Both the position numbers and the translations under genes were made by a program. The notes under the pieces are model-generated. The model was not told the origin of the DNA. It searched no databases and saw only the letters and a list, made by a program, of their open reading frames with translations. Positions 18,380 to 36,572 of a DNA stretch of 64,000 nt are shown here, piece after piece (position 1 is the stretch's first letter; every line of letters begins with the position of its first letter). Source of the DNA: Xenophilus sp. Marseille-Q4582 (GTDB lineage Bacteria > Pseudomonadota > Gammaproteobacteria > Burkholderiales > Burkholderiaceae_C); the NCBI RefSeq assembly GCF_916700565.1, contig NZ_CAKAKO010000006.1, positions 310,001 through 374,000 on the forward strand, in the 5' to 3' direction.

Positions 18380-18502
18380 CTACTGTCGGCGCAGCCAGGC
18401 CCAGACCCCTACCCCGATGGCCGCCAGTGCCAGCGCGGCGCGCCAGTCGGCCAGCGCCACGGTTGCCAACCCCAGCGCCACGAACGCTCCACTCAATCTC
18501 AT
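18380..18502 (-). CDS. Small membrane protein overlapping the giant gene's stop
   Basis: A 40-codon gene starting at ATG 18502, whose ATGA overlaps the TGA of the giant gene. The product is hydrophobic: AFVALGLATVALA (about 6-18) and ALALAAIGVGVWAWL (about 23-37) with a basic end LRRQ, so one or two membrane helices. The ATGA overlap and a GGAG in the end of the giant gene (CTGCAGGAGAGC) support translation. No function assigned. Confidence 0.55.
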   Translation of the reverse strand: MRLSGAFVALGLATVALADWRAALALAAIGVGVWAWLRRQ

Positions 18503-21500
18503 GACCCGCTCTCCTGCAGCTGCTTGCGCACTTCCGCACGGATCGCCTTCGGCGCTGCCTGTTCGACCCGTGTAGCCTTGTCCGCCCGCATCGCGACGAC
18601 GCGGCGCCGGACGGCCGCCATGTCAATGGTGATGGGAGAGTGGGGATTCCGACGGTTCCACTCGCGCACGGATTCGCGCACCTTCTGCTGCTTGGCGTAG
18701 TCCCGGTCGTAGACAGCCTTGGCCATCTCGTCCGCGAACTCCTGCTTGGCCAGCCTATTTTGCGACACCATGCGCTGGGTCTGGAAGGTCGCCTCTTGGA
18801 CCTTCGACACATCAGTGGGCTGGAACCCGATCATTTTGGTGATGGCTTCCGACAGCGTCGTGTCGACCACCTTGCGCCCGCGGGTGTCCTTGTACTCCCC
18901 GTCGATCATCATTTCGACGCCCTTACGCAGGTTCTCGGCGGCGCGCGGGGCCATCATCTGTGCGCCTTGGAGCGGGCTGCCCTGCAGCGCCTTGTCCGCG
19001 CCCTGGAACATCCGCTGCGCCAGGTCGGCCGAGGGGCCGACGAACTCGGCCACGTCGCGGCTGTAGTCCTCCTTCTTGGTCAGCAGGCCCGTGCCGGGCA
19101 GCAGGTCGCCCATCCCCAGGCGGCCCGCAACGTCGATCGGCACGCCCGGCAGGCCGGACACGCCGCGCTCCACGAACGCGCCCGCGCTCTCGCCCAGTAC
19201 GCTGGCCAAGAACTGCCGGCGCGCCTGCTTCGAACTGAACGAGTAGCCCAGGCGCTGGGCGATCCCGTCCAGAAGATCCTCGGCGTCCTCCACGAACGGC
19301 AGGCCGCCGGCCCCACCCATCAGGAACAGCATCGCCAGCATGAACGCCGCCGCGCGCTTGCCCTCGGGCCCGCCGCGCGTGGCCAGCCGGTGCAGCAGCT
19401 CCGTGTAGCTGATGCTGTACTGCTTGAAGGTGAAGGCCAGTGCGCCCACCGGGCCGCGTGCCCACTGCGGCTTGTTGCCCTTGTTGTAGACGAATTGCGT
19501 GTCGGCGATCGCCTTCTCTGCGAACTGTGCCGGCTCGGCGATTCCGCTCGCAACGGCCGTGCGGTAGGCCGCGATGAAGGTGACCCGCCGGTTGAACTGC
19601 TCGGCCAGGCTGAACGGTTTGCCCCACGCCAGCGCCAGCTTGCTCAGCGCATTGGACGCTGCGGCCCGGGCGTTGCCGGTCGTGGTCCCATCGCCGGATT
19701 TCAGCGCAGCCTGCCCGCGCGCCTGCGCCAGCAGCTGGTGCACCTCCTGCGGCGCAACGATGCCTTCGCCTTCTGCCTTCTTCAGCGCCGCGTCCAGCTT
19801 CGCGTCCCCGGTGCTCGCGCGCATCACGTCGCGCAGCGCGTCTTTCATCTGGGTGGCCGCGCCACGCACGCCGGCCCACTGGGACAGGTAGGGCATGGTG
19901 ACTGCGAAGGGCTGGGTCATGTTGACCATGGCCGATGCCAGCGAGCCGCCCAGGTATTGCGTGAACAGCAGGCCGCGCAGCGCCTGCGCCTCCTCCTGCG
20001 GGTTGCGCACGTAGTCGGTGAGCCGCACGGCCATGTCTTTCAGCTGACCGTCGCTCTTCGGGATGTCATTGGTCGCCCGGGTGATCTCGCCCTGGTGCAG
20101 GTTCTGCGACGACAGCCGCGCGTTCGAGTAGACGAAGCCAGCCAGCACGCGGCCGGCGTCCTCGCTGAACCCGGCGATGCCCTTGCGCTGGATCAGCCGC
20201 TTCATCGCGCTGCGGTTCGACTTGGCCAGCTTCAGGTACTGCTGGAACATCTGGTGCTGGGCGTCGTCGCCCTCGGCCTCCAGGCCCACCATCTCGCCAA
20301 ACAGTTCCAGCGTCTCCGGCGTGATCCCGTTGAAGAGCTTGTAGGACTGCTCGGAGTTCGTGCCCATCGTCACCGTCGCGCCCGGGAAGTTCTGGCGCAT
20401 GCGGCGCGCCATAGCTCCACGCTCCAGCCGGCCTTCGAACATCCCGAAGTACACACGCTCGCCGTTGGCGTCCACCACGTCGAGCGTGTAGGAGCCGAAG
20501 CGAGACAGCGGGGCGTAGCCGCGCCGCACCAAGTCGTTGATCCGATCGCCCTTCTCGATGATCTTGTTCGCGGTGTCCAGCAGCACGTCGCGCCGCTGCG
20601 GCTGGTCGTCGGCCATGCGATGCAGGTGATCTCGCAGGATCTCGGCTGCGTCGTAGGCGCTGGCGGCGTCCATGACCATGTCGCGCAGCTCGGCCACATC
20701 CTTGCCACCGAAGCGCAGCATCTCGGCCTGGCCCAGGCGGTTCAGGCTCTTGTCGGCCGCCGCGCGAAACTCGCGGTACAGGCTGATGTGGTGCGGTGTC
20801 GCGCCGAATTCCTGGCGCAGCTCGGCATCGGTGAACACCACGCCGGCCTGCAGGAATTCGGCTTCGAAACGGTTGCGTACCGCGCCCTCGTAGACGTCCA
20901 GCTTAGAAGCCTGCCAGCGCTGCAGCTGCTCAGGCGTCACGCGGCGCCGGCGCAGCAGCATCTGCGCCTTGTCTTGGGTCGACAGTTGCGCGTAGCGCGC
21001 CTCCAAGTCCGCCAGTTTGGTGAGCTTGCCGCTCTCGTCGCGTGCCCAGATCAGCGTGCCCTCGAACACTGGGCGGCTCAGTGCCTTGGTGTCCTCAGCC
21101 GACAGCGCCGTCTTTTTCAGGTCAGCGATGCTGTCGAGCTTGGGCAGGATGCGCGGCGCCAGGTCGGCGGCCTCGGTGGCGTAAAAGCTCACGTCCTGCA
21201 GGAAGTCCTGCACGGCGTCGTACACCCGCTTGAACGCCGGCGCGCGCTGCGCCAGATCGTGCATGGTGCCGACGGACTTGTGCCACCAGGAAACAACCCC
21301 GGGGGAGCGAAACAGGTCATTGACCGCGTCCTGCGCCTTGGCGCGGAAGTCGCGGGGATCGTTCAGGCCGGCAGTGCGCTCTGTTCCTGCTCGATCAGCT
21401 GCTGCAGCAGAGCGGGAATAGAAAATCCGGCCGGAGCGGTCAGGGGAACTGAGTTGGGGTGCATTTGCGAGTAGCCCACCCAGTAGTGCAGCGGGTCGCC

Positions 21501-24500
21501 CGTCCTGGCCTCGGCTTCCGCCGCTTCCTTCGCGAAGAAGGGCTCGGAAGACAGCTGTGCGCGCCACAGTTCGCCAACCAGCCTGTGCCGCTTGCGCAGA
21601 GCGGCTTCGAGTGGATCGTTCTCGCGCGCCGTTCCCACCAAGCTGTCCAAGCGAGACTGCAGCTCCAGTGTCCGAGCGGTGGAAACGTCCATTGGCGAGG
21701 TCGAAAGTGATGTTGCGCGAGGCGGGGAAGGCATTATCCATAGCCGCCACCGACGCAGCAATCATGCGCCTCACGTTGCCAACGTGGTCACCGTAGATCC
21801 AGGTCAGCGGCGGCACTCCCTCGCCGCCGCGGATTTGGTCGGGGTGTGGGGCCAGGTGCGCCGTGGTGCCGAACTTCAGCGCGCTGGAGATCATCTGCTC
21901 CAGCCGGCGGCGCAGCGCAACCGTGCTCAGGCCCGCCGGATCGCCGATGAAGATGCGGCCCGTGTTGTGCGCGAAAGCCGCAGCCATCTGGTAGACCTCG
22001 GCGCCGTACTGGCCCTCGCTCATCAACGACACATCGATCCACACGTCGCCCGTCGGCTCAACATCTTCCGGGTTCAGCCCTGGTCGCTGCGTGACCTGGC
22101 CCGACATGTCCCCGTCCACCACGTCGTAGCCGTAGAGCTGGGGGCCGTAGGGATTGGGCGCGCGGACCATCAGCCGGGCCGTCATGCCGTCCGGCGCGGT
22201 GATCTGGTAGTCCGTGCGGCCGGCGAACGCTGGCATCTTGCGCACCTTGAAGGCTGGGTTCACCTCGGCGACGATCTCCTCCAGCGTCGTCCCTGCCGGC
22301 TTGGGCAGCGCGAAGAAGTCGTCCACCTCGGCCAGCGCGCGCAGCGCGCCCGCTTCGCCGTCTTCCGCCATGCTGAATGCTGGCACGCCCCCGCGCGGTC
22401 CGCCGCCTGGGCCGCCGCGCTGCACGAACCGCCGCGCCGGCAGGATGAAGTTGCGCACGATCTCTTCATCGGTCATGCGCATGCCGCGCAAGGCCGGCAC
22501 ACGCTCGCGCAGCCAGGTGCGCACTGCCGCAATTGCCCGCTTCACAAAGCCCAGTTCCGGCGCGGTCTGCGCCATCTCGGCCAGCACCTCTTCCGCGGCC
22601 ATCAGTCGCTGAGCATCGTTGTCCATGTCCAGGCCGTACTGACGTGCCTTCGCGGCCACCTCGCCGCGCCGAACGGTGGCCAGCTGCGCAAGGATGGCCT
22701 GCAGGTCCGCGCCGAAGACGTGGCGCAGGCCGTAGTGCCCCAGAACCTCATGGAACAGCACCCGCGTCACGTCCTCGGTGCTGTTCATCTGGTCGGCCAC
22801 GATGAACACCTCGCCACGGTAGAAGAAGCCTTCCGGCTCCCCCTCTGCGCCCTGGGCCTTCTGCCCCTCGTTGTGCGCGCGGACGCGCTCGGGCACTTTG
22901 GGGTCGGACATCGAAGCCACGACCGTGATCTTGGGCGCGTTGGCCCAGTCCTTCACCAGCGACTGGACGGCCTTCGCCACCTGCTCGACGCCGATGCCGG
23001 CGCCCGCGCCGCGGCTGAATGCCGGGTCAGTACCAGCTGCTGCATCCTTCGCGCCCTTCCCAGCCAGGCGCGCCAGCACCGCCTTGTGCTTGCCCCGGGC
23101 GTCCTCCAGCTTCGCCATGTCGGGCCAATCGCCGGCCGCCTCGGTTTTGTCCAGGTCAGCCTGCTCCTTCTGGGCGCGCTGGAGGCGTGCGCTCAGGTAG
23201 CTGTGCTCCGACACCAGGCCGTTCAGCATTGCGTCCACCCAGCGGACCACGGTGGCCGGCGCCTGCATGGAGTCGAGGATCTCGCCATCGCGCGACGCGA
23301 CGACCTTGCCGCTCTGCGACAGCGTCACTTCCAGGCGATTCGAGCCATCGCGGCCCACATTGCCCTCCGCCGTCACCTCGAAGCCGCCGATGGTTCCCAG
23401 CGGCTTCTGCGTCTGGTCGGCGATCGCGTCGACAACCGGCTGTCGGATGGCGGTCTGAATGCGAGCACGGCGGCGGTACTCCTCGCCGCCCACAGTCCAG
23501 ACGATCGGGTCCACGTCGCCGCGCAGGTCGGAGAAGGCCTCCGCCATGGGCGCGCGCGCCGTGTAGCGCTCCCCGTCGATCGTTACATCGATGGGAGCGG
23601 CCCGCTCAACCTCCTTGCCGTCCTTGTCCTGCGTCGTGACCTTGCGGGAATCGATTTCGTGCAGGTAGGTCTGAGCCTCGCGCCAGTTCGTGAACTCGCG
23701 GCCATCGATCGTTGCGCTGAAAGCCTCCAGGCGTTCCTGGGCGTCCTGCTGGTACTGGCGAACTTGCTCAACGAGCGGCGCGGCGGCCTCGATCTCCGCC
23801 GGCAGGCGCTGCAGCACTTCGGCGGCGCGTCGGCGGCGCGATTCCAGTTCGTTGCGGCTGGCATCGAAAGCGCGCTTGCGCTGCTCGAGCTTCTTCACGT
23901 CCGTGCGCAGCTGGATCTCGTGCAGCAGGTCGATGTTGCCCGTCGCTGCGGCCTGCATCTCGCCGGCCGACAGTTCCAGATCCTCGAAGGCGTTGTCCAC
24001 CTCGCGGCCCACCTTGCGGGCACGAAGCTGGTTGATCATCTTGAGCTTCGTCTCCTGGACCTGCCACATGCGCATGTCCAGCGTGTCCTTGGTGACGTAG
24101 GCAAGCACCTCGACCTCAAAGTCGGGCAGCGCGGCCGGGCCGTGCGCCAGGACGTTGCCCTGCCGGATGATGCGGCCCTCGCGCTGCTCCACATCCGACG
24201 GCTTCCATGGCACGTCCAGGTGGTGCAGCGCCACTAGGCGCTCCTGCACGTTGGTGCCGGCGCCCATCTTCGGGGTGGAGCCCATCACCACGCGGATGTC
24301 GCCCGCGTTGACCTTGCGGAACAGCGCGGCCTTCTGTTCGTCGGTGTTGAAGTCGTGGATGAAGGCGATTTCTTCGGCGGGCACGCCCTTTTCGATGAGC
24401 GCCGCCCGCAGGTCGTCGTACACGCTGAACCCACGCTCGGCCGCGCGCACCGCATCCAGCCAGTCGGCGCCCTTGGCGTCCATCTCCTGCTGTGCCGCCT

Positions 24501-27500
24501 CGGCGTCTTCCGCGATCGCCTGCGCCGCCTCGTTGCCGAGAGTTGCGCTGGCCAGGATGTCCTCGCTGGCCGCCGTGATGCGGCCCTGCAGCGCCTCGTA
24601 CTCCTTGAGCTCGGCCTTGGCGTGCTTCACGGGCGTGCCCAGATCGGAGAACACCAACTGCGTGCCCTTGACGTGGGCAAACCGCTGGTAGCGCGCCACG
24701 ATTTCATCGCTGGCACGGTCGATGCGTCCGCCGGGCTCGCGCTCGATCGCCTTCGGGTCCACCAGTCGGATGTCCATCGCCGCCTTGCGGCCGTCGCCCA
24801 TGATGACCAGCACGTTGTCCTCGCCCTTCTTCGGCGGGCCCTTCCTGGCCTCCAGCACCTGGGCGCGGCGCGCGAGGTCTTCCATGTAGGCTTCCTGCGC
24901 CGGCGTCTTCTCCAGCGACACGGGCGTGCGGCGGTCGCCTTTCAGGCGCGGCAGCGGGAAGGTCGCGCCGTCGTTCTCCTCGGCATACGCCGCCTTGATG
25001 TCGTCCATGGTCACCGTGTCGCAGACCTGGTCGAACATCTTGAGCAGCTCGGGCGTGTTGACGAAGTTCGCCATCCGCGACGAGGCCTTGAATCCGTCGC
25101 CGCTGGGCTTCTGCATCCACACCTGATCGACGCTGGCGAAGGTGTTGGCCCAGGCGTCGAACGACTCGAACCCCAGCTCGCGCATCTGGGTCGGCATCAG
25201 GTACCGCATCATGTGGTACATCTCGGCCAACGAGTTGGACACCGGCGTGCCGGTGGCCGCCACGAAGCCCTGGTCGCGGCCGTTCTTTGCGAAGATCTGG
25301 TTGATCTTCACCAGCATGTCGTAGGCACGCTGGCTGCCCTGGCTGTCGCCCAGGCCCTGCACGTTCTGCATCTTCGTGCTGAACATCAGGTTCTTGAACA
25401 GGTGGAACTCGTCCACGAAGAGCTGGTCGACGCCGATCTGCTCGAAGTCCAGCAGGTCATCCATCGGCTTGTCGCGCAGCGCCTTGATGCGGTTCTCCAG
25501 CCGCTCTTTCAGGCCCTCCAGCTGCTTGACCGTGCGCTTCTTCTGGCCCGCATCGCCCGTGCCGCCGCCCACCTGCTCGATGGTGCGGGTGATCTTTGCA
25601 ATCTCCTGGCGATTGAACGCGGCCTCGAACTCGGGCGCCGGCTTGATGAAGCCGAACGACGAGTGGGCGATGACCACGGCGTCCCAGTCGCCGGTGGCGA
25701 TCTTGGCCAGGAAGCGGCGGCGGTTCGCCCGCTCAAAGTCCTTCTTGGTGGCGGTCAGGATGTTCGCGCCGGGGTACAGGCGGTAGAAGTCAGCCGCCCA
25801 CTGTTTCACCAAGTGATTCGGGACGGCAACCATCGGCTTGCGCGCCAGACCGGTGCGCTTCAACTCCATCGCGCTGGCCACCACGGTGAAGGTCTTGCCG
25901 GCCCCGACGACGTGGTCGTAGAGCACAGTCCGGTCCTGCACCGTGCGGGCGATGGCGTTGCGCTGGTGGCGGCGGAACTTGATGATCTCGTCCGGCACCT
26001 TGCCGGGGAAGTCCATCAGGCTGCCGTCGTACACCCGGGTCACATAGTTGTTGTTCGTGTCGTTGTAAGCACGCACCAACATTTCGGAGCGGTCGCTGTC
26101 CGCGAAAAGCCAGTCGCTGAACTTCTCCTTGATCTCCTGCGCCTTGTTGTTCGCCTGCTCGGTGGCCTCGGCGTTGACGTGTGTCTTTCCCTCAGAATCC
26201 TTGTAGGTGACCTTGATGGGGCGGTTGTTCAGCAACGCGGCCAGCAGCGCCTCGCCGTCTACAGCGGCAGTACCGAAGGTGGAGGTGAACGCCACGTTGT
26301 TGCCCGGCTTCACGCTTACCTGGAAGCTGCTGTTCAGCGGCACGTACGTGATCCGGGCCTCGGTGCCGTCGCCGAACAACTGGCTCGCGAAGTCCTCGTA
26401 CACCTTCGTGGGCACCCACGGCGAACCCACGCGGGCGACGATCTGGTCGGCGCCGACATCCTCCGGCTGGACCTCTTCGAGGGCGCGGATGTTAGCCATG
26501 ACGCCAGCCGCGCGGGCCTGGGCGAGCTTTGCGCGCACGTTACCCGAGAGGTAGGCGTCGCGCAGCACGTACTCATCGGTGGCGGGGTCGCGGAACAGGG
26601 CGGGCTTGTCGCCGCTGGCCAGTTCGCGCAGCACATCGTCGGGGTCGCGGCCCAGCAGCTTGCCGATGTACGAGGCGTCGAGCTTGCCGCGCTCGGCCAT
26701 CGAAACGGCCAGCGCATCGGCCGGCGAGTCGACCTTGCGCACGGGCTTGCGCGCAGCCACCACGCGGCGATCAAAGATAGGCGCCTTCTTCGCGCTGCTC
26801 TTCGTGGGCTTGATGCCCTGTCGCTTCGCTGCGGCGGGTCCGACGCCCGGCGTGTAGCCGTGCTCCAGTGAGGCCAGCAGGGGGTAATCGGGGTCGTCCT
26901 CGAACACCCGCAGGGTGCTCGGGTCGTTGATGAGCCCGTGCTCCTTTCGGTAGCCGTCGTACTGCTCGTTGAGCCGTGCACGCAGTTGGCCCATGCCCTT
27001 GTCGTCGTCGGCCATCTCTGCCGCGATCAGCCCGCGCAACGTGGCGCGCATGGAGGACAGCGCTTTGATGCGCGCGAAGCCGGTGTCGCCGAGCGTCGTC
27101 TTCTCGGTCCACTGGGTGGCCGGCGTGATCTCCTGCGCCCGCGCCTCGCCGCCCAGGTCGGGCAGGCGCTGCATCAGCTTGCCGTCCTCGGCTGTGTAGT
27201 AGCCGCCCTCCTGCACCGTCGGATTGCGCAGCGCCACGATGGCCGCCTGCTGCTGGCCCGTGCTTGCAGTGTCGGCGATTGATGTGTAGACGCCCTCCGG
27301 CAGTCGCTGGACCGCTTCGCGGAGCAGCGCAGCCGTATCCTGCCCCTCGCGGGCCACCAGCGCAGGCATGTCGCCCCGGTACATGGTCCCGTAGGCGCCG
27401 AACTCGCCCAGCATCATGTCCGGGTTGTCGATGAAGTACTGGTTGAGGGCCACCTCGCGGCCCTTCGCATCCGTGTGGGTGCCGACGTTCAGCCACCTCT

Positions 27501-30500
27501 TGGCGTCCTGCTTCGCGGCTCGGCCGCCGATCTCGCCGTCGGGGCGCTTCTGCAGGAAGATGATGTCCGTCGTCACTTCGGTGCCGGCGTTCTTGGAGAA
27601 GGCGTTGTTCGGCAGCCGGATGGCGCCCAGGAACACCGTGCGGTCAGCGATGTAGCGCCGCGCGGCGTCCGCCTTGGCGTCGAGGAAGCTGTTCGTCACC
27701 ACCTGCGCCAGCACGCCGCCCTCGCGCAGCATGTCCACCGCCTTGGCGAAGAAGTAGTTGTGCAGGCTCAGGCCGGACAGGTGCTTCCGGCCGCTCGTGT
27801 CCGTCTGCGGGTCGCTGGCGAACGGCGGGTTTCCCACCGCGGCGTCGAAGTAGGCGTCGGTGCCCTTGAACTCGGTGAAGTCCGCGCGCTGAACGTTCTG
27901 CTTGGGGTACAGCTGGCGCGCGATGGTGCTGGAAAGGCGGTCCCGCTCGATGGCGGTGAACCGCGTGGCGCTGCGCATGTCGGCCGGCATCAAGCCCAGG
28001 AAGTTGCCCACGCCGGCGCCGGCCTCGAGGATCTTGCCGCCGGCGAAACCGAAGCGGCGCAGCGCGGCGTAGATGCCGTCCACGATCACCTCGCGGCTCG
28101 TGTAGTGGGCGTAGCGCGTGGAGCGGGCCGCGTCGGCGTATTCCTCAGGCGTGAGCAGTTCCTTGAGCTCGGCGTGCTCCCGTGCCCAGTCGGCATTGTT
28201 CGCGTCGAAGGCTTGCGCCAGGCCGCCCCAGCCGACGTAGCGCGCCAGGGTGCGCTGCTCTTCCGGCGTGGCCCAGCGGTCGGGGTCGGCGTCGAACGCC
28301 TTGGCCAGGCGGATCGCCGCCAGGTTGTTCTTGAACTTGGTCTTCTGCCCGCCCTCGCCGAGTGCGAAGTCGGCGTCGATGGTGAAGTCGGTCGCCTGCG
28401 GCGCAGGGATGACGGGCGCATTCGGGGCCGGATTGGGCCCACCCTCGGGGATCAGTCCTTGCTGTTGGGGTCGAAGTCCGACAGCCCCTGCATCAGGTCG
28501 GCGTGCGCGCGGAACCCGGCGCTCTTTCGCATCCGCGGCGTCTGCGCGGGCTCCTCCGGCAGGAACAGGTACTGCTCGCGCACTTGCTCCCACGCTTCCT
28601 GCCAGGTCGCCCCCTGCGTCGTCAGCGCTCGCACGCCCGCGCTGGTCGCCTCCGCGGCCTCCGTCAGCGCCTTGTCCAGCGCTCCGGCCTTCTCCAGCCG
28701 GGCGTACATCTTCGGCAGGTGCTCCTTCCAGTGGGCGCGCGCCTGCGCGATCCAGTTGGCGTGCTGCATCATTGCTCTCCTTCGATTCGGCCTGAGTATC
28801 CGCCGGCTCAGCTTCCGAGGGTTGTTCTTCGACTGCGACGGCCTCGTGCCGCTCGATCTCCGACTTCTCCTCCACGTCGATGACCGCGCGCTTGGTGTCC
28901 GCGCCCTGCTTGCCGCCGGCCATGGCGATGTAGGCGCCTTGCAGGTGGTCCAGTGTCAGCGCCTCGGCCGCATCATCGCCCAGGTGCTGGCGGATCTGGT
29001 CCAGGGCGAACTTCGCCGAGTCCTTGAACTTGTGGTAGCCCAGGCGAAAAGCCGCGTCCAGCACGCGCGTGAGCACGGGCAGCAGCTTCTGCTCCTGCTC
29101 CGGCACGATGTTCATGCGGGTGGACTTGCCCAGGATGTCGCCCAGGTCGGCCAGCGCGTTCATCAAGTCAGCTTTGGCGCGGGTTTCTTCGGCGCTGGGC
29201 TTCTTCTTGGTGGCAGGCTTCTTGGCCGGCATCAGCGCCTGCACCGCCTCGGCTGCGGAAGGGAACAGGTCGGCGAACTCGGCGAATGCCTGCGCATCCT
29301 TGTCGGCCACCGCCTTGACGGCCGCGTCCTCGGCGTCGAAGCGCTTGGTGCGCATCACGCGCAGCGTCGTCTCCGCTGCCGTCACCTTGAGTTGGGCGGC
29401 CTTCTTCTCATCCAGGGTCAGGCCGTCGGCCGCTGCGGCTGTGCGCAGGCGCTTCACGCGCGCCTGCTGCTTTTCCATGTCGGCGGTCAGGGCCGCGTCC
29501 ACGGCAGGCGGAACGCTCACCGTGCCAGGCTTGGCCTGCGGCTGGTCGGCCTTGGCCTCGTAGCTGCGCATCTCGGCGTCCAGCTCGTCGTTCTGCCCAG
29601 ACTCGGCCAACTCCTGGGCCGTCATGAATTCCGGCTTCAGTTCGCCGCGCACGATCTGGATGCCTTCGCGCGTCGGGCGCGTGCTCACCGTCTCGCTGAT
29701 GCGCACGCCGTCCTTCGCGTACCAGCGCACGCCGCGCGCGTCCTGGCGGATCATCACGCCGTCGGCGCGCCGCCCGACGATGGTGTTGCCGTCCTTGTCG
29801 GGTGCCGGCGCTGCTGGCGCTTCCTTCGCTGGGGCTGAGGCGACATCCGGCCGGCGCAGGTTGCTGATGAGCACGTCCAGCTTCTTGCCGTCCGCCCCCA
29901 CCACCCGCGCCATGTCCACCATGCCGATGCCCTTCATGGCCCGGCGGAAGACCGCCTCGATGGTGCTGCGGCCGATGGTGCGGCCCTCCACATCCACCGC
30001 GTCGCCCGGCTGGAAGCCCTCCAGCTCGGCCATGGCCCCACTGTTGTCCGGGTCGGGCTTGCCGGTATGCAGCGAGGTGACGGGCTCAACGACCGCCGCC
30101 GGCGGGGCGCTGGATTCGGCGGGCGCCGCGGCCGGCTCCGCATTGGCTTGTGCCGCGGTCGACGATTGGGGCGGATTTGGGCCTGATTCGGGCTCGCTGT
30201 TGGCGGGCGCTTCGCTTGTAGGCCGCGCCGGCTCTTGCGTCACCTGCTGCGCATTGGTGCTCGGATTGGTCGACGATTGGGGTTCATTGGCTGGCGCGTG
30301 CGCCATCTCCACCGGCCCGGCCGTCAGTTCGCGGGCGCTCGGCTCGGTGCCATGCGTGCGCGGCCGGCTGCCCGCAACCTCGCGCCAGCCGTCGCCATCG
30401 CGCTCCACCGCCTGCACCTGCACGGACCAGCGGCCCTCGGCATCTGGCGGGGTGAACGCCAATACCCGGTCATGCCCGCCGCCGTAGCTGCGCACGATGT

Positions 30501-33318
30501 TGCCGGGGGCGTAGTGGTCTGCGATGGCCTGCTGCTTCGCCTGCGCACGCTGCTTCGGCGTGTCCTTCTTCACGGCCGGCTGCGGCGCTGCGGGCGCTGC
30601 CGCGGGCAGTTGGCCCTTGTCACCCATGTCCGCCAGCTCCTGCCGGCGCTTCTCGATGGCCGCGGGTCGCAGCGCGGCGGTCACGCCGCCATTGTTCGTC
30701 TCTCCCGTGGCGATTTCGCGCTCCAGCCGAGAGCGGCGGCGCTGGTTGGGCGTCATGCCCTCCCATCCAACCTCTTCGACCTGCGCAGAGGACGCCTGCG
30801 CGGGCCGCTCGCCCATCGGCTCCTGCTCAACAGCAGCGCCGGCTTCGCCCAGGTGCTTCTCGCGAATGAACCAGCCACCGTCCTTCTTGAAGGTGTAGGG
30901 GTCGATCGCCTTGGCAGCGGGCTCATCCAGGTCAGTGCGCACCACGCCGCGCAGCACCTTGCCGCGGCCCGTGGTGTGCTCAACGATCGCCGGCGGCTGC
31001 TCTCCCTCCTGCCCGGCGCTTGCTGCATCGGTCGTGGAACTGGGGAACTCCCGAGCCAGCGTCAGCAAGTCCTGCACGGGGGCGTCAAGCCGGATGACCC
31101 GCACCGGCTGTGCAGCCTCGCGTGCGGCCATCCACTGGTGATGCCCATCGAGGACATGGCCGTCCCGGGAGACCAGGATCGCACGATTCCCGCCCGTGAA
31201 CGCCTTGGCCTTCTCCACCTTTTCGCGGCTGAACTCGGCCTGAGTCGGCTTGAGGCTGTCCGCTGCGACTTCCTCCTCCGCGTGCGCCACGCCGCGGGCG
31301 TTCATGAAGTTGGCCATGGCGCCGCGATGCTCGGCCTTGATCTGCGGCATCTCGGCGCGGGGCACGCCCAACGTGCCGGACTCCTTGGCGAAGGCCGTCC
31401 AGCCGTCGCCACGGTCCTCGCCTTCAATCGCAGGTGCTGCGGCAGACGCTGGCTTGCGCACCACGAACCCGCCCTCCACCGCAACAACCTCGTGACCGGG
31501 GCCTGCGGCCTTCGCGGCATTGATGGCCGGCAGGCGCACCGTGAAGGGTTTGCCCTTCTTGTTGGTGATGTCCCCCTCCTGGGCGCCGCCAACGGCTGCG
31601 GTAGGCGCTACAGAACCTGCACCAGGTTCAGGGGCTCGCTTGGGCTCGGCTCGGGCGGCAGGACCGCTTCGGGCGGCTGGTTCTGCAATGGCCGGTTCTG
31701 GCTCAGTACGTTGGCTCGCGCCAGCGGTGACATTCGTTTGAGTCGCAGCATCGCCTGCAGCACCTTGGATCGCTCCGTCGGGTCTTGCGGAAGCTGAAAG
31801 GGCATCTTTAATCTCCTGTTCGCTCGCGCCCAAAGCGCGCAAAAAGTCTTCTTCGGACACGTTGCTGGCCGCGCCGAAGTCGGGGATGTCGGCATCGCTC
31901 AGTGCGTCGCCCAGCGAAGCGGCCGTCTGGTCGTCCAGCAGCCGGTAGTAGTCATCGACTGCCGAGCGGTCTTCGTCGCTCAGGTCGGCATAGTCAAGAA
32001 CCGGCGGTTCCGGGTCGGCCATCACTTCGGCAGGCTCTGTGACCTGACCGGCCAAGGGATCTGCCGCTGCAAAGCCCGTATCGGTGGCCGCAGCGGCGAC
32101 AGCAGCGCTCGCTGGCTTCAAGGCCACGTCCGTCACGCCTCCGGCGCCGAGCGCCGCTGCCGTGGCGCGCGACAGCGGCCCACGCTCGACGATCTGACCT
32201 TGACGCGCCGCAAGTTCATTGCGCGCCTGCTGCCGCTGATCGGCGGTGGCCGCCACGCCGTCCGGCCCGACCGCAATGGTTGGTGCTGGAAGCGCAAGCG
32301 TGGGAACCGCAGGGTCGTTCGCGGCAGGAATGGTGGTATCGCTCGGATCATTCGCCGCTGCTGGCCGGCCGCTGCCCGCCAGCGCGTTCGCGCCGCCGCC
32401 CATGGCCGCGCCGGTCAGCAGGCCCAGCACTGCAGCCTGGTCAACGCCCTCATCGAGGGGGCGGCCAAGCGCCGCGTTCTGCATCACTTGCTCGTGGATC
32501 GACTGCGGCAGCTCCTCCAGCAGACCCTCGGCAACAGCGCCCTCCAGCACGCGGCGCACCACGCCCTTGCCGGTGGCCTGGCTCCGCCCGGCCTGGACGA
32601 TCATGGTGTCCACGTCGGCGATGCCCAGCGAGCGCGCGATCTTGCCGCCCAACGCCCCGAAAGCAGCAGTGCCGGCGCCGCTGGCCAGCGCGGCGCCGAC
32701 CTGGCCACCCGTCAACGTGCCATCAGGCGTTTCCTGCCGGATCTGCTCGGCGGCCGAGCCCGCACCCACGACCCCCTCGCCTGCGGCAGCCGCTGCCCAC
32801 GGCGCCACGCGAGGGGAAAGTGCCGCGACACCGCGGCCCACCACCCCGCCTGCGCCCATCAGCGGCAGGGACTCGACGGCGGCATGCCCGATCACGGACG
32901 GGTTCTGCAGAGCGGCGGCGAACTTGCCGCCGAAGCCCTCAGCCTCGTTCAACCGCTGATTGGCTGCCTGCTGCGCACCGCTGTACTGTTCGTCGAGGAA
33001 AGCCTTGGCCTCCTTCGGCCGGAACCCCAGCGCCTCGGCGCCCTTGCCGGCGAGGCCCATGGTCGGGATGTCCATCAGCCCGATGGCCGCCTCAGGCACG
33101 CTGATCGCGCCCTTGACCAGCGACAGGCCCACATCGCCGGCAGTGCCAAGCGCCGTCCGCTCAGGCGCGGGTGCTTTAGGGGCTTGAACTCCGATCGCCT
33201 TTGCGATGTCGGCGTCTGCCATGTCGGGGTAGTACACCTGCCGCAGCACGCTCACGACCTGGGTGTCGTCGAGGTCGCTCCACTCGGGCTTCTGCTGGCG
33301 GATCTGATTGATGTCCAT
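18499..33318 (-). CDS. Giant polyvalent phage protein (ParB-like, DNA methyltransferase, helicase, HExxH, PLxRFG)
   Basis: One open frame of 4,939 codons from ATG 33318 (a TTG at 33339 overlaps the previous stop). Segments in order: Ala/Gly-rich membrane-like region (about 50-330); ParB/Srx-like part with VLDGHHQWMAA (about 720); LPD-type linkers; N6-adenine methyltransferase with YVGWGG, GAGVGNF and NPPF (about 1,690-1,910); SF2 helicase with VGAGKT, VDEFH, ATGTPVSN and QREGRIIRQGN (about 2,470-3,060); coiled coil; HEVLGH metalloprotease-like site (about 3,525); PLSRFG domain (about 4,270). Such proteins, about 4,600 residues in Bcep22-like phages, are virion-borne and thought to enter the host with the DNA, with DarB-like protection against restriction. 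Three small out-of-frame genes lie inside at module borders. Confidence 0.9.
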   Translation of the reverse strand: MDINQIRQQKPEWSDLDDTQVVSVLRQVYYPDMADADIAKAIGVQAPKAPAPERTALGTAGDVGLSLVKGAISVPEAAIGLMDIPTMGLAGKGAEALGFRPKEAKAFLDEQYSGAQQAANQRLNEAEGFGGKFAAALQNPSVIGHAAVESLPLMGAGGVVGRGVAALSPRVAPWAAAAAGEGVVGAGSAAEQIRQETPDGTLTGGQVGAALASGAGTAAFGALGGKIARSLGIADVDTMIVQAGRSQATGKGVVRRVLEGAVAEGLLEELPQSIHEQVMQNAALGRPLDEGVDQAAVLGLLTGAAMGGGANALAGSGRPAAANDPSDTTIPAANDPAVPTLALPAPTIAVGPDGVAATADQRQQARNELAARQGQIVERGPLSRATAAALGAGGVTDVALKPASAAVAAAATDTGFAAADPLAGQVTEPAEVMADPEPPVLDYADLSDEDRSAVDDYYRLLDDQTAASLGDALSDADIPDFGAASNVSEEDFLRALGASEQEIKDALSASARPDGAIQGAAGDAATQTNVTAGASQRTEPEPAIAEPAARSGPAARAEPKRAPEPGAGSVAPTAAVGGAQEGDITNKKGKPFTVRLPAINAAKAAGPGHEVVAVEGGFVVRKPASAAAPAIEGEDRGDGWTAFAKESGTLGVPRAEMPQIKAEHRGAMANFMNARGVAHAEEEVAADSLKPTQAEFSREKVEKAKAFTGGNRAILVSRDGHVLDGHHQWMAAREAAQPVRVIRLDAPVQDLLTLAREFPSSTTDAASAGQEGEQPPAIVEHTTGRGKVLRGVVRTDLDEPAAKAIDPYTFKKDGGWFIREKHLGEAGAAVEQEPMGERPAQASSAQVEEVGWEGMTPNQRRRSRLEREIATGETNNGGVTAALRPAAIEKRRQELADMGDKGQLPAAAPAAPQPAVKKDTPKQRAQAKQQAIADHYAPGNIVRSYGGGHDRVLAFTPPDAEGRWSVQVQAVERDGDGWREVAGSRPRTHGTEPSARELTAGPVEMAHAPANEPQSSTNPSTNAQQVTQEPARPTSEAPANSEPESGPNPPQSSTAAQANAEPAAAPAESSAPPAAVVEPVTSLHTGKPDPDNSGAMAELEGFQPGDAVDVEGRTIGRSTIEAVFRRAMKGIGMVDMARVVGADGKKLDVLISNLRRPDVASAPAKEAPAAPAPDKDGNTIVGRRADGVMIRQDARGVRWYAKDGVRISETVSTRPTREGIQIVRGELKPEFMTAQELAESGQNDELDAEMRSYEAKADQPQAKPGTVSVPPAVDAALTADMEKQQARVKRLRTAAAADGLTLDEKKAAQLKVTAAETTLRVMRTKRFDAEDAAVKAVADKDAQAFAEFADLFPSAAEAVQALMPAKKPATKKKPSAEETRAKADLMNALADLGDILGKSTRMNIVPEQEQKLLPVLTRVLDAAFRLGYHKFKDSAKFALDQIRQHLGDDAAEALTLDHLQGAYIAMAGGKQGADTKRAVIDVEEKSEIERHEAVAVEEQPSEAEPADTQAESKESNDAARQLDRAGARPLEGAPAEDVRPAGEGRSAGQGADGGRGGDQRGRASADDAGGDLAGSVGASARAVPVPAGGARADAADAKERRVPRARRPDAGAVGLRPQQQGLIPEGGPNPAPNAPVIPAPQATDFTIDADFALGEGGQKTKFKNNLAAIRLAKAFDADPDRWATPEEQRTLARYVGWGGLAQAFDANNADWAREHAELKELLTPEEYADAARSTRYAHYTSREVIVDGIYAALRRFGFAGGKILEAGAGVGNFLGLMPADMRSATRFTAIERDRLSSTIARQLYPKQNVQRADFTEFKGTDAYFDAAVGNPPFASDPQTDTSGRKHLSGLSLHNYFFAKAVDMLREGGVLAQVVTNSFLDAKADAARRYIADRTVFLGAIRLPNNAFSKNAGTEVTTDIIFLQKRPDGEIGGRAAKQDAKRWLNVGTHTDAKGREVALNQYFIDNPDMMLGEFGAYGTMYRGDMPALVAREGQDTAALLREAVQRLPEGVYTSIADTASTGQQQAAIVALRNPTVQEGGYYTAEDGKLMQRLPDLGGEARAQEITPATQWTEKTTLGDTGFARIKALSSMRATLRGLIAAEMADDDKGMGQLRARLNEQYDGYRKEHGLINDPSTLRVFEDDPDYPLLASLEHGYTPGVGPAAAKRQGIKPTKSSAKKAPIFDRRVVAARKPVRKVDSPADALAVSMAERGKLDASYIGKLLGRDPDDVLRELASGDKPALFRDPATDEYVLRDAYLSGNVRAKLAQARAAGVMANIRALEEVQPEDVGADQIVARVGSPWVPTKVYEDFASQLFGDGTEARITYVPLNSSFQVSVKPGNNVAFTSTFGTAAVDGEALLAALLNNRPIKVTYKDSEGKTHVNAEATEQANNKAQEIKEKFSDWLFADSDRSEMLVRAYNDTNNNYVTRVYDGSLMDFPGKVPDEIIKFRRHQRNAIARTVQDRTVLYDHVVGAGKTFTVVASAMELKRTGLARKPMVAVPNHLVKQWAADFYRLYPGANILTATKKDFERANRRRFLAKIATGDWDAVVIAHSSFGFIKPAPEFEAAFNRQEIAKITRTIEQVGGGTGDAGQKKRTVKQLEGLKERLENRIKALRDKPMDDLLDFEQIGVDQLFVDEFHLFKNLMFSTKMQNVQGLGDSQGSQRAYDMLVKINQIFAKNGRDQGFVAATGTPVSNSLAEMYHMMRYLMPTQMRELGFESFDAWANTFASVDQVWMQKPSGDGFKASSRMANFVNTPELLKMFDQVCDTVTMDDIKAAYAEENDGATFPLPRLKGDRRTPVSLEKTPAQEAYMEDLARRAQVLEARKGPPKKGEDNVLVIMGDGRKAAMDIRLVDPKAIEREPGGRIDRASDEIVARYQRFAHVKGTQLVFSDLGTPVKHAKAELKEYEALQGRITAASEDILASATLGNEAAQAIAEDAEAAQQEMDAKGADWLDAVRAAERGFSVYDDLRAALIEKGVPAEEIAFIHDFNTDEQKAALFRKVNAGDIRVVMGSTPKMGAGTNVQERLVALHHLDVPWKPSDVEQREGRIIRQGNVLAHGPAALPDFEVEVLAYVTKDTLDMRMWQVQETKLKMINQLRARKVGREVDNAFEDLELSAGEMQAAATGNIDLLHEIQLRTDVKKLEQRKRAFDASRNELESRRRRAAEVLQRLPAEIEAAAPLVEQVRQYQQDAQERLEAFSATIDGREFTNWREAQTYLHEIDSRKVTTQDKDGKEVERAAPIDVTIDGERYTARAPMAEAFSDLRGDVDPIVWTVGGEEYRRRARIQTAIRQPVVDAIADQTQKPLGTIGGFEVTAEGNVGRDGSNRLEVTLSQSGKVVASRDGEILDSMQAPATVVRWVDAMLNGLVSEHSYLSARLQRAQKEQADLDKTEAAGDWPDMAKLEDARGKHKAVLARLAGKGAKDAAAGTDPAFSRGAGAGIGVEQVAKAVQSLVKDWANAPKITVVASMSDPKVPERVRAHNEGQKAQGAEGEPEGFFYRGEVFIVADQMNSTEDVTRVLFHEVLGHYGLRHVFGADLQAILAQLATVRRGEVAAKARQYGLDMDNDAQRLMAAEEVLAEMAQTAPELGFVKRAIAAVRTWLRERVPALRGMRMTDEEIVRNFILPARRFVQRGGPGGGPRGGVPAFSMAEDGEAGALRALAEVDDFFALPKPAGTTLEEIVAEVNPAFKVRKMPAFAGRTDYQITAPDGMTARLMVRAPNPYGPQLYGYDVVDGDMSGQVTQRPGLNPEDVEPTGDVWIDVSLMSEGQYGAEVYQMAAAFAHNTGRIFIGDPAGLSTVALRRRLEQMISSALKFGTTAHLAPHPDQIRGGEGVPPLTWIYGDHVGNVRRMIAASVAAMDNAFPASRNITFDLANGRFHRSDTGAAVSLGQLGGNGARERSTRSRSAQAAQAGWRTVARTAVFRALLREGSGGSRGQDGRPAALLGGLLANAPQLSSPDRSGRIFYSRSAAAADRAGTERTAGLNDPRDFRAKAQDAVNDLFRSPGVVSWWHKSVGTMHDLAQRAPAFKRVYDAVQDFLQDVSFYATEAADLAPRILPKLDSIADLKKTALSAEDTKALSRPVFEGTLIWARDESGKLTKLADLEARYAQLSTQDKAQMLLRRRRVTPEQLQRWQASKLDVYEGAVRNRFEAEFLQAGVVFTDAELRQEFGATPHHISLYREFRAAADKSLNRLGQAEMLRFGGKDVAELRDMVMDAASAYDAAEILRDHLHRMADDQPQRRDVLLDTANKIIEKGDRINDLVRRGYAPLSRFGSYTLDVVDANGERVYFGMFEGRLERGAMARRMRQNFPGATVTMGTNSEQSYKLFNGITPETLELFGEMVGLEAEGDDAQHQMFQQYLKLAKSNRSAMKRLIQRKGIAGFSEDAGRVLAGFVYSNARLSSQNLHQGEITRATNDIPKSDGQLKDMAVRLTDYVRNPQEEAQALRGLLFTQYLGGSLASAMVNMTQPFAVTMPYLSQWAGVRGAATQMKDALRDVMRASTGDAKLDAALKKAEGEGIVAPQEVHQLLAQARGQAALKSGDGTTTGNARAAASNALSKLALAWGKPFSLAEQFNRRVTFIAAYRTAVASGIAEPAQFAEKAIADTQFVYNKGNKPQWARGPVGALAFTFKQYSISYTELLHRLATRGGPEGKRAAAFMLAMLFLMGGAGGLPFVEDAEDLLDGIAQRLGYSFSSKQARRQFLASVLGESAGAFVERGVSGLPGVPIDVAGRLGMGDLLPGTGLLTKKEDYSRDVAEFVGPSADLAQRMFQGADKALQGSPLQGAQMMAPRAAENLRKGVEMMIDGEYKDTRGRKVVDTTLSEAITKMIGFQPTDVSKVQEATFQTQRMVSQNRLAKQEFADEMAKAVYDRDYAKQQKVRESVREWNRRNPHSPITIDMAAVRRRVVAMRADKATRVEQAAPKAIRAEVRKQLQESGS
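21363..21692 (-). CDS. Embedded out-of-frame gene 3 (within giant gene)
   Basis: A 109-residue frame with natural protein composition: TLELQSRLDSLVGTAREN, RKRHRLVGELWRAQL, GDPLHYWVGYSQMHPNSV and a C-terminal SIPALLQQLIEQEQSALPA. The giant frame over the same bases is Ala/Arg/Gly-rich and featureless (QAAQAGWRTVART). It has no good SD at ATG 21692; a TTG a little further in, after CTGGAG, is another possible start. Its TGA overlaps a CTG codon where the giant frame resumes as LNDPRDFRAKAQDAV. Confidence 0.45.
   Translation of the reverse strand: MDVSTARTLELQSRLDSLVGTARENDPLEAALRKRHRLVGELWRAQLSSEPFFAKEAAEAEARTGDPLHYWVGYSQMHPNSVPLTAPAGFSIPALLQQLIEQEQSALPA
28452..28772 (-). CDS. Embedded out-of-frame gene 2 (within giant gene)
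   Basis: A 106-residue frame starting ATGATG at 28772 with SD GAAGGAG 5 to 8 nt upstream. The product is soluble and helical with ordinary composition: HANWIAQARAHWKEHLPKMY, ALDKALTEAAEATSAGVRAL, TWQEAWEQVREQYLFLPEEP, ending FDPNSKD. The giant frame over these bases is a Gly/Ala/Arg linker (GADGGRGGDQRGRASADD). It sits just before the methyltransferase module. No family is recognised. Confidence 0.6.
   Translation of the reverse strand: MMQHANWIAQARAHWKEHLPKMYARLEKAGALDKALTEAAEATSAGVRALTTQGATWQEAWEQVREQYLFLPEEPAQTPRMRKSAGFRAHADLMQGLSDFDPNSKD
31608..31805 (-). CDS. Embedded out-of-frame gene 1 (within giant gene)
   Basis: A 65-residue frame starting at ATG 31805 with a strong SD (CAGGAG, 7 nt upstream). 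The product reads MPFQLPQDPTERSKVLQAML then RLKRMSPLARANVL and a Pro/Gln-rich tail, while the giant frame here is an Ala/Pro/Glu linker. Soon after its TAG stop lies AGGAGGGGGAC-ATC in the giant frame, resembling a lost start codon of a separate cistron. Confidence 0.55.
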   Translation of the reverse strand: MPFQLPQDPTERSKVLQAMLRLKRMSPLARANVLSQNRPLQNQPPEAVLPPEPSPSEPLNLVQVL

Positions 33319-33335
33319 GTGCGTGCGGGTCTGGT

Positions 33336-35153
33336 TCAAGAACGGGCCTGGGCAGCCAGGGCCTTGGATTCGCGCTGTGCACGCTCCTTCTCCTGCTGGA
33401 GATAGGCGGCCTGTGCGGCGCTGAAGCGCTGCTTCTTGTCGTCGTCGCGGCGCCTCATCCAGTCCTTCACGTCGCTGCTCAGGTCCACGCGCGTGCCCTT
33501 GTTGAGCTCGTCGACCTGCTTCCGGTAGACGGCCTCCATCGGGTCTGCGGCCGTTGCTGCGGCGGCAAGTGCGGCGCTCGTTCGCGCGGAGTAGTTGCGG
33601 TTCTCGGCCGTTGGATTCGTGCCCCGCTCCCCGCTGATGCCGCCGTTGTAGCCAGCCATCGCCTTGTCCCAGGAGCCGGTGCGGTCAAAGCTCTCTTTCA
33701 GGTGGTAGGCCGCGGCAAGTGCTTGCTCGTTGGGGTCGTCGGAATAGGCGTCGACGCCGTATTTCTTCTGGAAGGCCTCTCGGGTGGCGGGGATGAACTG
33801 GTAGACGCCGCGTGCGCCCTTGGGCGACACCTGGTCACCGTTGCTCCGCTCTCCCACGGTTCGGATCGTGCGCAGCACCTCGGCCGGCACGCCGACCTTC
33901 TTCGCAGCTGCAGCCTCCGCCCCGTCCCACGCCGGCGAATTGAAGGGGATTGCCTTGCCTGGCGCGCCGCCCTTGCGCAACAGGAACGGGTCGTCGTCCT
34001 CGCCCTTCTTCTCGGGCATGTAAGGCGCCAGCGCCTGGTTAATCTGCTCGGTGATGACAGCGCGGCGCTCCAGTAGCTGGCGAGCGCCCGGGGCTTCGGC
34101 AGACCAAGAGCCCTCCGCCTGCGCTTTCACGATCGCAGCGCCGATGGTGTCGGCTTCTTTGCGCAGACCATCGACGCGGGTCTTGACGGCGGCAGGGATC
34201 TTGGCGTTGTTCTGCGCCTCAGAGAGGGCGAGCTCAGCCGTCTTGATCTGGGTGTCCGCCAGCCGGTCCTGGCGGTCTGCCGTGCGGTTCGCACGATCGT
34301 TGCTGATGTTGAACTGCCGCACGCCCTCATAGAAGCTGCGGTCGGCATTGGCCTGCTGCCGCCCCGTCTCTGCCGCTCGCGCCTGCTGCGCCATCACCTG
34401 CTCGTACGGCATCATGGCCATGGTCGCCTGGTGCGCATTCAGCTTGATGGGCACGACCTTGTCGCCGTCCTTCATGCCGAAGGAAGCCTCATAGGTCTTG
34501 ATCTTGCCCAGGCCGGGAACGTCAAGCTCCACAGGCGCGACGCTCACCTCCCCGTCGATCTGGAATCCAGCGCCGGCCAACGCCTTGGTCGCAGAAGCCG
34601 CATCGCCGGTTGCTCGGAACTGCGCCAGCGCATCCATCACGCCGTTCTTCTTCAGGGTGCGTGCCGTCTCTTCGATCTGCATCTTCTGAAGTTCGGCCTG
34701 GCGCTGGTTGGACTCCAGGGCTGCGGCCTTGTCCAACTGGCCGTGCTGACGGTAGACCTGCGCCGCGCGCGCTGCCACCGCCTCCGGAGCATTCGCCTTG
34801 GTAGCGGCGCCATCGGCCGCTGCGCGATCCGCGTAGGTCTGGCCAGCCACCGAGAAGCCCACGGGCTTGTCGACGAGGCCTGCGTTTGGCAGCGCCTGCA
34901 TTTCTGCGGATCCTGCGTCCCGGCTGTCCGCCCAGTCCGGCAGTTGGTTTGGCCCACCCGTCTCTTGTACCTGCACAGGCTGGGCTGCGTCCTTGAGACC
35001 CTGCTTCAGTGCGTCAGCCTCCGCCTGCTCTTTGGTAAGCCGCTGGCGTTGCTGCAATTGGTATTCGCGATCAGCCTGAGCATCGACGATGCGTTGCCCT
35101 CGCATGTACCCGTCCACCGCGCTCTGCAGCGCAAAGCCCCATCCCTTTGCCAT
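33336..35153 (-). CDS. Virion-associated lytic transglycosylase
   Basis: A 605-residue protein whose last third has a goose-lysozyme/SLT-type domain (about 415-520): the catalytic Glu in VGERSNG, then SPKGARGVYQFIPATREAF and AMAGYNGGISGERG. The first 400 residues are helical, Gln/Ala-rich and coiled-coil-like, as in internal ejection proteins of podoviruses. It would cut peptidoglycan locally during DNA entry. The ATG at 35153 overlaps the preceding stop; the giant gene follows with overlapping ends. Confidence 0.85.
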   Translation of the reverse strand: MAKGWGFALQSAVDGYMRGQRIVDAQADREYQLQQRQRLTKEQAEADALKQGLKDAAQPVQVQETGGPNQLPDWADSRDAGSAEMQALPNAGLVDKPVGFSVAGQTYADRAAADGAATKANAPEAVAARAAQVYRQHGQLDKAAALESNQRQAELQKMQIEETARTLKKNGVMDALAQFRATGDAASATKALAGAGFQIDGEVSVAPVELDVPGLGKIKTYEASFGMKDGDKVVPIKLNAHQATMAMMPYEQVMAQQARAAETGRQQANADRSFYEGVRQFNISNDRANRTADRQDRLADTQIKTAELALSEAQNNAKIPAAVKTRVDGLRKEADTIGAAIVKAQAEGSWSAEAPGARQLLERRAVITEQINQALAPYMPEKKGEDDDPFLLRKGGAPGKAIPFNSPAWDGAEAAAAKKVGVPAEVLRTIRTVGERSNGDQVSPKGARGVYQFIPATREAFQKKYGVDAYSDDPNEQALAAAYHLKESFDRTGSWDKAMAGYNGGISGERGTNPTAENRNYSARTSAALAAAATAADPMEAVYRKQVDELNKGTRVDLSSDVKDWMRRRDDDKKQRFSAAQAAYLQQEKERAQRESKALAAQARS

Positions 35154-36567: not shown

Positions 36568-36572
36568 CACGT

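Follow-up and report, generated by a model that had tools for sequence, protein, structure and literature searches.

The window, the 64,000-nucleotide stretch of DNA analysed here, belongs to a bacterial contig and carries a prophage in which a single giant gene of the polyvalent, DarB-like type occupies positions 18499-33318 of the minus strand (ATG at 33318, 4939 codons). Counted from the first TTG, the ORF spans 18499-33339 and consists of 4946 codons in one uninterrupted frame. Terminase, portal and internal virion proteins, found among ten proteins scanned, are encoded on the same strand. Pfam matches place a DNA methyltransferase (MTase) domain of the giant protein at 27637..28041 (Eco57I/MTS), an SF2/SNF2-like helicase region at 24157..25983 (ResIII and SNF2-rel_dom; Helicase_C reached 23.1 bits, slightly below its cut-off of 23.5) and an LPD37 domain at 21529..22056, all read from the minus strand. 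The fusion of an MTase to an SF2/SNF2 helicase is the one that characterizes DarB-like polyvalent proteins, and relatives of the giant carry DarB-like annotation. A PAPS reductase-like gene is located nearby (35155-36570, minus strand), as is also the case near the giants of Bcep22-like phages. Long open frames of 787-944 aa run antisense to the giant (18640-29838, plus strand) and are most likely high-GC artefacts.

Three complete ORFs are contained within the giant ORF, all in the +1 frame relative to it, so that the arrangement is one of nested overlapping genes: ORF1 (31608..31805, 65 aa), ORF2 (28452..28772, 106 aa) and ORF3 (21363..21692, 109 aa, start uncertain), each on the minus strand. 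The ATG of ORF1 is preceded by the Shine-Dalgarno (SD) sequence CAGGAG (31813..31818) and that of ORF2 by GAAGGAG (28777..28783), both on the minus strand and both as described in an earlier note on this DNA; no convincing SD precedes the ORF3 start in the window. A codon-usage frame scan that was trained on the giant itself and received no input on the small ORFs found another frame to be coding-like at exactly three stretches, which are ORF1, ORF2 and ORF3. The segments that had been singled out as resembling real proteins were therefore returned by a procedure blind to them, and their proposed position at the borders of the giant's modules is supported as well. The margins of the +1 frame over the giant frame were 15.4 for ORF1, 30.6 for ORF2 and 28.3 for ORF3, with no value above -1.7 elsewhere in the giant. 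When the giant was resampled synonymously 200 times, the observed margin was not reached once at any of the three ORFs. Among all 60-codon windows of the giant, GC3 was lower than GC2 (giant positions) solely over these ORFs. In their own frame, GC at codon positions 1/2/3 was.73/.41/.79 for ORF1,.68/.48/.94 for ORF2 and.69/.48/.75 for ORF3.

On the sequence evidence, we regard ORF2 as a certain case of a genuine nested +1 gene. A tblastn search with ORF2 retrieved 21 phage records, and in those opened its place lies inside a single long annotated gene, the exceptions being Sinorhizobium phage PBC5 (two genes) and Pseudomonas phage Itty13 (genes on the opposite strand). The Itty13 record (L003, MW460249.1) has three long CDSs on the strand opposite a giant frame of at least 4112 open codons, which looks like a mis-annotation of the giant gene. 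Of 100 ORF2 loci, collected from GTDB genomes, IMG/VR and phage records, 90 have an open giant frame with the homologue in its +1 phase, two (both phage PBC5) carry the homologue in fused form, and in eight it lies under no long giant frame. At one of these eight loci (L064) the giant is rearranged; at the other seven (L081, L086, L088, L092, L093, L095 and L101) no giant gene was found within flanks of 0.5 to 10 kb, the single match in the flank search of L081 being located on ORF2 itself. Among the free-standing homologues, those of L086, L088 and L095 are preceded by a good SD. In L086 (7946-10306, a Proteobacteria MAG), the homologue adjoins genes that by eye are integrase-like and HigA antitoxin-like. 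In L101 (9971-10762, Pseudidiomarina sediminum), a 263-codon frame with hydrophobic stretches begins with the ORF2-like domain, and its C-terminal half appears by eye to be membrane-spanning; the flanks contain no giant.

Over ORF2, conservation follows the small frame. Among pairs of the 73 distinct sequences, small-frame identity exceeded giant-frame identity in 2599 of 2628, and identity in the giant frame (.328) was not above that in the third frame (.339). Between the window and one of its nearest relatives, L016, substitutions at giant positions 1/2/3 amounted to.28/.15/.12 over ORF2 and.09/.07/.32 downstream, and windows in which position 1 exceeded position 3 were confined to ORF2. The comparison with the other nearest relative, L012, gave.34/.13/.14 over ORF2; there, two windows outside ORF2 also passed, in a gapped and poorly aligned stretch, and in the L012-L016 pair two windows near codon 3352-3421 passed too.

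The AlphaFold model of ORF2 is an all-helical small domain with a mean pLDDT of 83, for which a comparison with PDB folds gave no significant match. Searched as a profile against PDB sequences, ORF2 had a designed helical repeat protein as its best hit (E 6e-4 over 42 positions), which we take as a coincidence of helices. Foldseek against BFVD returned one match below 0.001, the 1093-residue model Q8W6J4, presumably orf33 of PBC5. An NCBIfam scan of five proteins gave no match. The family has a distant similarity to TnpV (PF14198): 25 of 59 ORF2 members match this profile weakly at E<=0.01 (best E 3.6e-5), a hand-made ORF2 consensus scored 21.3 bits against the curated cut-off of 27, and ORF2 of the window had no Pfam match to TnpV. 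A TnpV search of the window's own genome was negative, with the controls equally silent. A role of TnpV in excision has been postulated from homology with lambda Xis (PMC3158075).

ORF3 is well supported by sequence comparison as a second nested gene family that would be partly dual-coding with the LPD37 tail. As a single protein, it had no match in phages or IMG/VR, and a query built from the family found none in phage records and a single plasmid. Its homologues are few: two of 250 genomes by genome search and five of 349 through LPD37 loci (the window's own genome included in both counts), and among 15 genomes of the genus only that genome. The homologue in a genome of the same family also lies in +1 at the end of LPD37, within a giant frame of 2913 codons. 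A small family alignment (A2) retrieved six viral loci, five of them distinct, and ORF3, whose family has the core QRLKERLSSIPFYAKKA..YW, is nested in +1 at each of them; it is also nested in L104 and, with a strong SD, in L105. A free-standing copy, annotated as a hypothetical protein, is present on a Sphingomonas plasmid, where the remaining two frames are open for 112 and 89 codons only. In L012 and L016, the stretch with LPD37 and ORF3 is absent as one unit. In the window, the last part of the LPD37 match (21529-21692) coincides with nested ORF3; part of the conservation in the Pfam model may therefore stem from the other frame. Most ORF3 pairs conserve the small and giant frames about equally, with the small frame favored in L117-L116 (.45 versus.20 for the giant) and the giant frame in L118-L104 (small.34 versus giant.46), and such similar conservation is what dual coding with the LPD37 tail would lead one to expect. 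Purifying selection on the small frames, proposed earlier as a check, is thus clear for ORF2 and less clean for ORF3. The view that the giant frame over the small genes is linker only likewise holds for ORF2, where it is an unconstrained spacer, but not for ORF3, about 54 codons of which are overlapped by the LPD37 match.

ORF1 has moderate support. Its codon usage and SD make it probably a nested gene, with somewhat better than even odds. No homologue was found in phages or IMG/VR, and the genome search (1 of 250) recovered the window's own genome only, so of the non-embedded homologues that had been sought for the small proteins, free-standing copies exist for ORF2 and ORF3 but not for ORF1. 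The slot of ORF1 contains a different SD-led nested ORF in L012 and L016, common to both. The suggestion of a lost ATG start at 31590 gains no support from the same comparison, since the AGGAGG there is not kept in these two relatives.

Comparable linker slots of the relatives repeatedly contain nested +1 genes, as judged by a frame scan of 79 distinct giants of 91, the window included, at a margin threshold of 8. Some entries in the collection are not independent: L046 repeats PBC5, L117 repeats PEp14, and L113 and L114 are alike. The scan recovered ORF2 in 76 of the 79 giants and missed it in three. It also detected 47 extra nested runs, every one of them in +1 under a scan that left out the first 70 codons, where several +2 runs lie; a +2 run in L001 had a margin of 6.5, below the threshold. 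Relative to ORF2, 20 extra runs were upstream (in 16 giants) and 27 downstream (in 26 giants). In 790 resampled genes, the same scan produced two runs at the ORF2 place and none elsewhere. An SD-led ATG was present near the start of 27 of 41 distinct extra runs, compared with 14.5% at random places, a rough yardstick whose null is not matched for ATG density. One extra family occurs in Agrobacterium and Sinorhizobium phages. In the slot upstream of ORF2 in L019, the nested product matches phrog_16759 (58 positions, E 2.9e-19). The Bcep22-like phages BcepIL02, DC1 and JC1, which were not reached by the ORF2 tblastn search, have an SD-led nested +1 gene directly ahead of the MTase. Between BcepIL02 and JC1, substitutions at giant positions 1/2/3 were.222/.120/.148 in the nested gene and.122/.089/.255 outside it, and the other two pairs agree. 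An hhalign probability of 35% is suggestive only of the BcepIL02 nested protein being a distant relative of ORF2. A nested +1 gene was also detected in Pseudomonas phage 8P; the frame scan found none in phage Y7, whose GC of.48 is in a range where scan margins run lower.

Two observations bear on which of the two readings of ORF2 came first. Homologues occur free-standing and the giant linker is unconstrained, which points to the small frame as the older one; for ORF2 the small gene is likely the original reading, with the giant linker printed over it. The earlier proposal that the small genes were kept as overprinted genes is therefore retained as to their being kept, and is turned around for ORF2, where the linker looks like the newer, overprinted reading. 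The opposite order, in which the small genes were born de novo within existing giant linkers, is the most durable of the alternatives, although an improbable one. It would account for the lack of an ORF1 homologue and for the products of the first slot, which look unrelated between the window and its close relatives L012 and L016. It is at odds with the free-standing copies of ORF2 and ORF3, with the weak TnpV matches within the ORF2 family and with a linker over ORF2 in which no constraint is detectable.

The linker over ORF2 is free in sequence but never interrupted. In 73 distinct sequences, the giant frame contained 0 stops, whereas the expectation given the small proteins and codon usage was 283.8 (log10 P summing to -127, with each P capped at 1/400). 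Its composition is 65% Ala/Gly/Arg/Pro/Ser/Thr, with Ile, Met, Phe, Tyr and Trp each under 1%. Giants with a GC of only 46-51% also nest ORF2, and about 4 to 11 giant-phase stops are expected there. Absence of stops so far beyond chance argues that the giant frame is read through as a spacer; judging from these alignments, it would have to stay open while its residues hardly matter. The same absence disfavors production of the giant as separate pieces, a possibility raised in the earlier note, with the ORFs marking the borders of separately translated products. The giants of L029 (3078-20205) and L075 (5061-16692) are indeed split; against frames free of stops in 73 of 73 sequences, separate pieces are very unlikely. 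A further point against them is that a DarB-like protein (gp69) counts among the structural proteins of phage JC1, with no implication that it is full length (PMC9144972). In both split giants the break is upstream of ORF2, which consequently lies inside the downstream cistron and not between cistrons. This lends no support to the specific idea of four ancestral cistrons fused with the small genes between them; cistron fusion as such is a plausible and natural route to the giant.

The constancy of the +1 phase was not explained by avoidance of stops. In the MTase-helicase stretches of 86 giants, the used phase would give 4.04 stops per 100 codons and the other phase 2.83 (2.33 versus 2.51 at GC>.60, and 9.83 versus 3.57 at GC<.53). 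The used phase gives the less hydrophobic linker for 68 of 73 ORF2s and for 86 of 86 control stretches. Lower linker hydrophobicity may thus fit the constant phase, short of proof.

Judging from the start sites, ORF2 would be translated from an initiation site of its own. Of 88 starts in its homologues, 84 are ATG and 86 have an SD core, compared with 1419 of 9131 (15.5%) +1-frame ATGs of the same giants; three of the 91 giants were omitted from this count because the search motif was absent, and their starts look normal by eye. A stop of the small frame is located only two codons ahead of the start in 11 of 88, and elsewhere the frame is open for up to 123 codons. These features speak against a programmed +1 frameshift, by which ribosomes on the giant frame would end in the small frame and yield a shortened product that terminates in the small domain: free-standing copies also have starts of their own, and the 11 nearby stops leave no open small frame upstream for a shift site. 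In PBC5, ORF2 shares the frame of the giant's upstream half, which would fit a frameshift, but an indel or sequencing error could account for the frame change in this phage, and we consider frameshifting highly improbable. The change in PBC5 (L008) occurs shortly before 12001, right after the conserved motif SSAAEVE.

The distribution of ORF2 is tied to that of the MTase. When 95 MTase matches are ranked, the 21 phage records with ORF2 take the top 21 places, and in 69 sequences ORF2 distances track those of the MTase-helicase (Mantel r.84, 0 of 999 permutations). The Spearman correlation of ORF2 is.73 with the MTase-helicase and.48 with the C-terminal 600 residues of the giant. ORF2 would thus travel with the methyltransferase-helicase module, and ORF3 apparently with the LPD37 module. 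The nearest precedent we found is the hidden HNH endonuclease gene of phage ShiLan (PMC11855218). An insert in a phage methylase gene contains this entire gene out of frame; the host frame remains open there, and the insert is a predicted loop. The geometry is the same and would favor selfish homing insertions here as well. However, the ShiLan gene encodes a homing endonuclease, has a disjunct distribution and is described as having no detectable ribosome site. The small proteins described here number up to three per gene, ORF1 and ORF2 are SD-led, and no endonuclease was matched by Pfam in the three window ORFs and 59 ORF2 alignment members or by PDB fold comparison for ORF2. As ORF2 follows its MTase-helicase module and is conserved with it, with no sign of a disjunct distribution, homing is scarcely probable.

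That the three ORFs are chance open frames of a GC-rich gene, without a product, is no likelier: given the giant protein, the +1 frame would be open with P.22 over ORF1,.91 over ORF2 and.41 over ORF3, so openness by itself is unremarkable at 68% GC, but the signal lies in codon choice, and ORF2 is nested also in the giants of 46-51% GC. For ORF1 taken alone, which lacks a homologue, a chance open frame is unlikely yet carries considerably more weight.

Other known systems resemble the locus in part. In JC1 (PMC9144972) and lambda (PMC9409062), an entire Rz1 gene is embedded out of frame in Rz; these spanins are one pair of lysis partners, whereas several unrelated small families are found here in the linkers of a giant. 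The polyvalent proteins described by Iyer (2017, PMC5512222) are of the same kind as the giant, combining MTase, SF2/SNF2 helicase and LPD domains in phages, and the nested genes are an extra layer relative to that account, in whose main text the words 'overlapping' and 'linker' are absent. No account of nested genes in DarB-like giants was present among the literature matches listed, in a coverage that mostly excludes subscription journals.

We favor, with a probability of roughly 0.82, the reading in which the giant gene is a platform for independently initiated small +1 genes located in its inter-module linkers. Ribosomes on the giant frame would run straight through the small-gene stretches, and over ORF2 they would produce a hydrophilic spacer rich in Gly, Ala, Arg, Glu, Ser, Asp and Pro, with a nearly free sequence from which stops are barred. 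Separate ribosomes would initiate at the internal ATG, led by the SD in ORF1 and ORF2, and synthesize the small protein, so that giant and small products would both be made. From their linkage, the small proteins most likely help the adjoining module, whether the giant virion protein is being assembled, packaged or controlled; on the same grounds, our best guess for ORF2 is that it partners the MTase-helicase module in assembling the virion or in control. More tentatively, and with a little less than even odds, the locus can be viewed as layered gene islands, in which the giant frame was threaded as disordered spacer through pre-existing small +1 genes whose products are dedicated partners of the modules.

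If the layered arrangement is correct, modules can fuse into one polypeptide while the genes between them are retained, which suggests a route to giant multi-domain proteins with persistence of the intervening genes, and the long frame, not the short one, is apparently the overprinted newcomer. The nested-gene reading also predicts specific peptides for virion proteomic data. None of the phage records examined lists these small ORFs as separate genes, and the occurrence of ORF2 at the same place and in the same frame in many related viruses implies that standard annotation misses a gene layer there. Some of the largest phage genes, among them those of PEp14, Pavtok, BcepIL02, JC1, SopranoGao and VvAW1, would therefore contain a conserved layer of small proteins that annotation has passed over.
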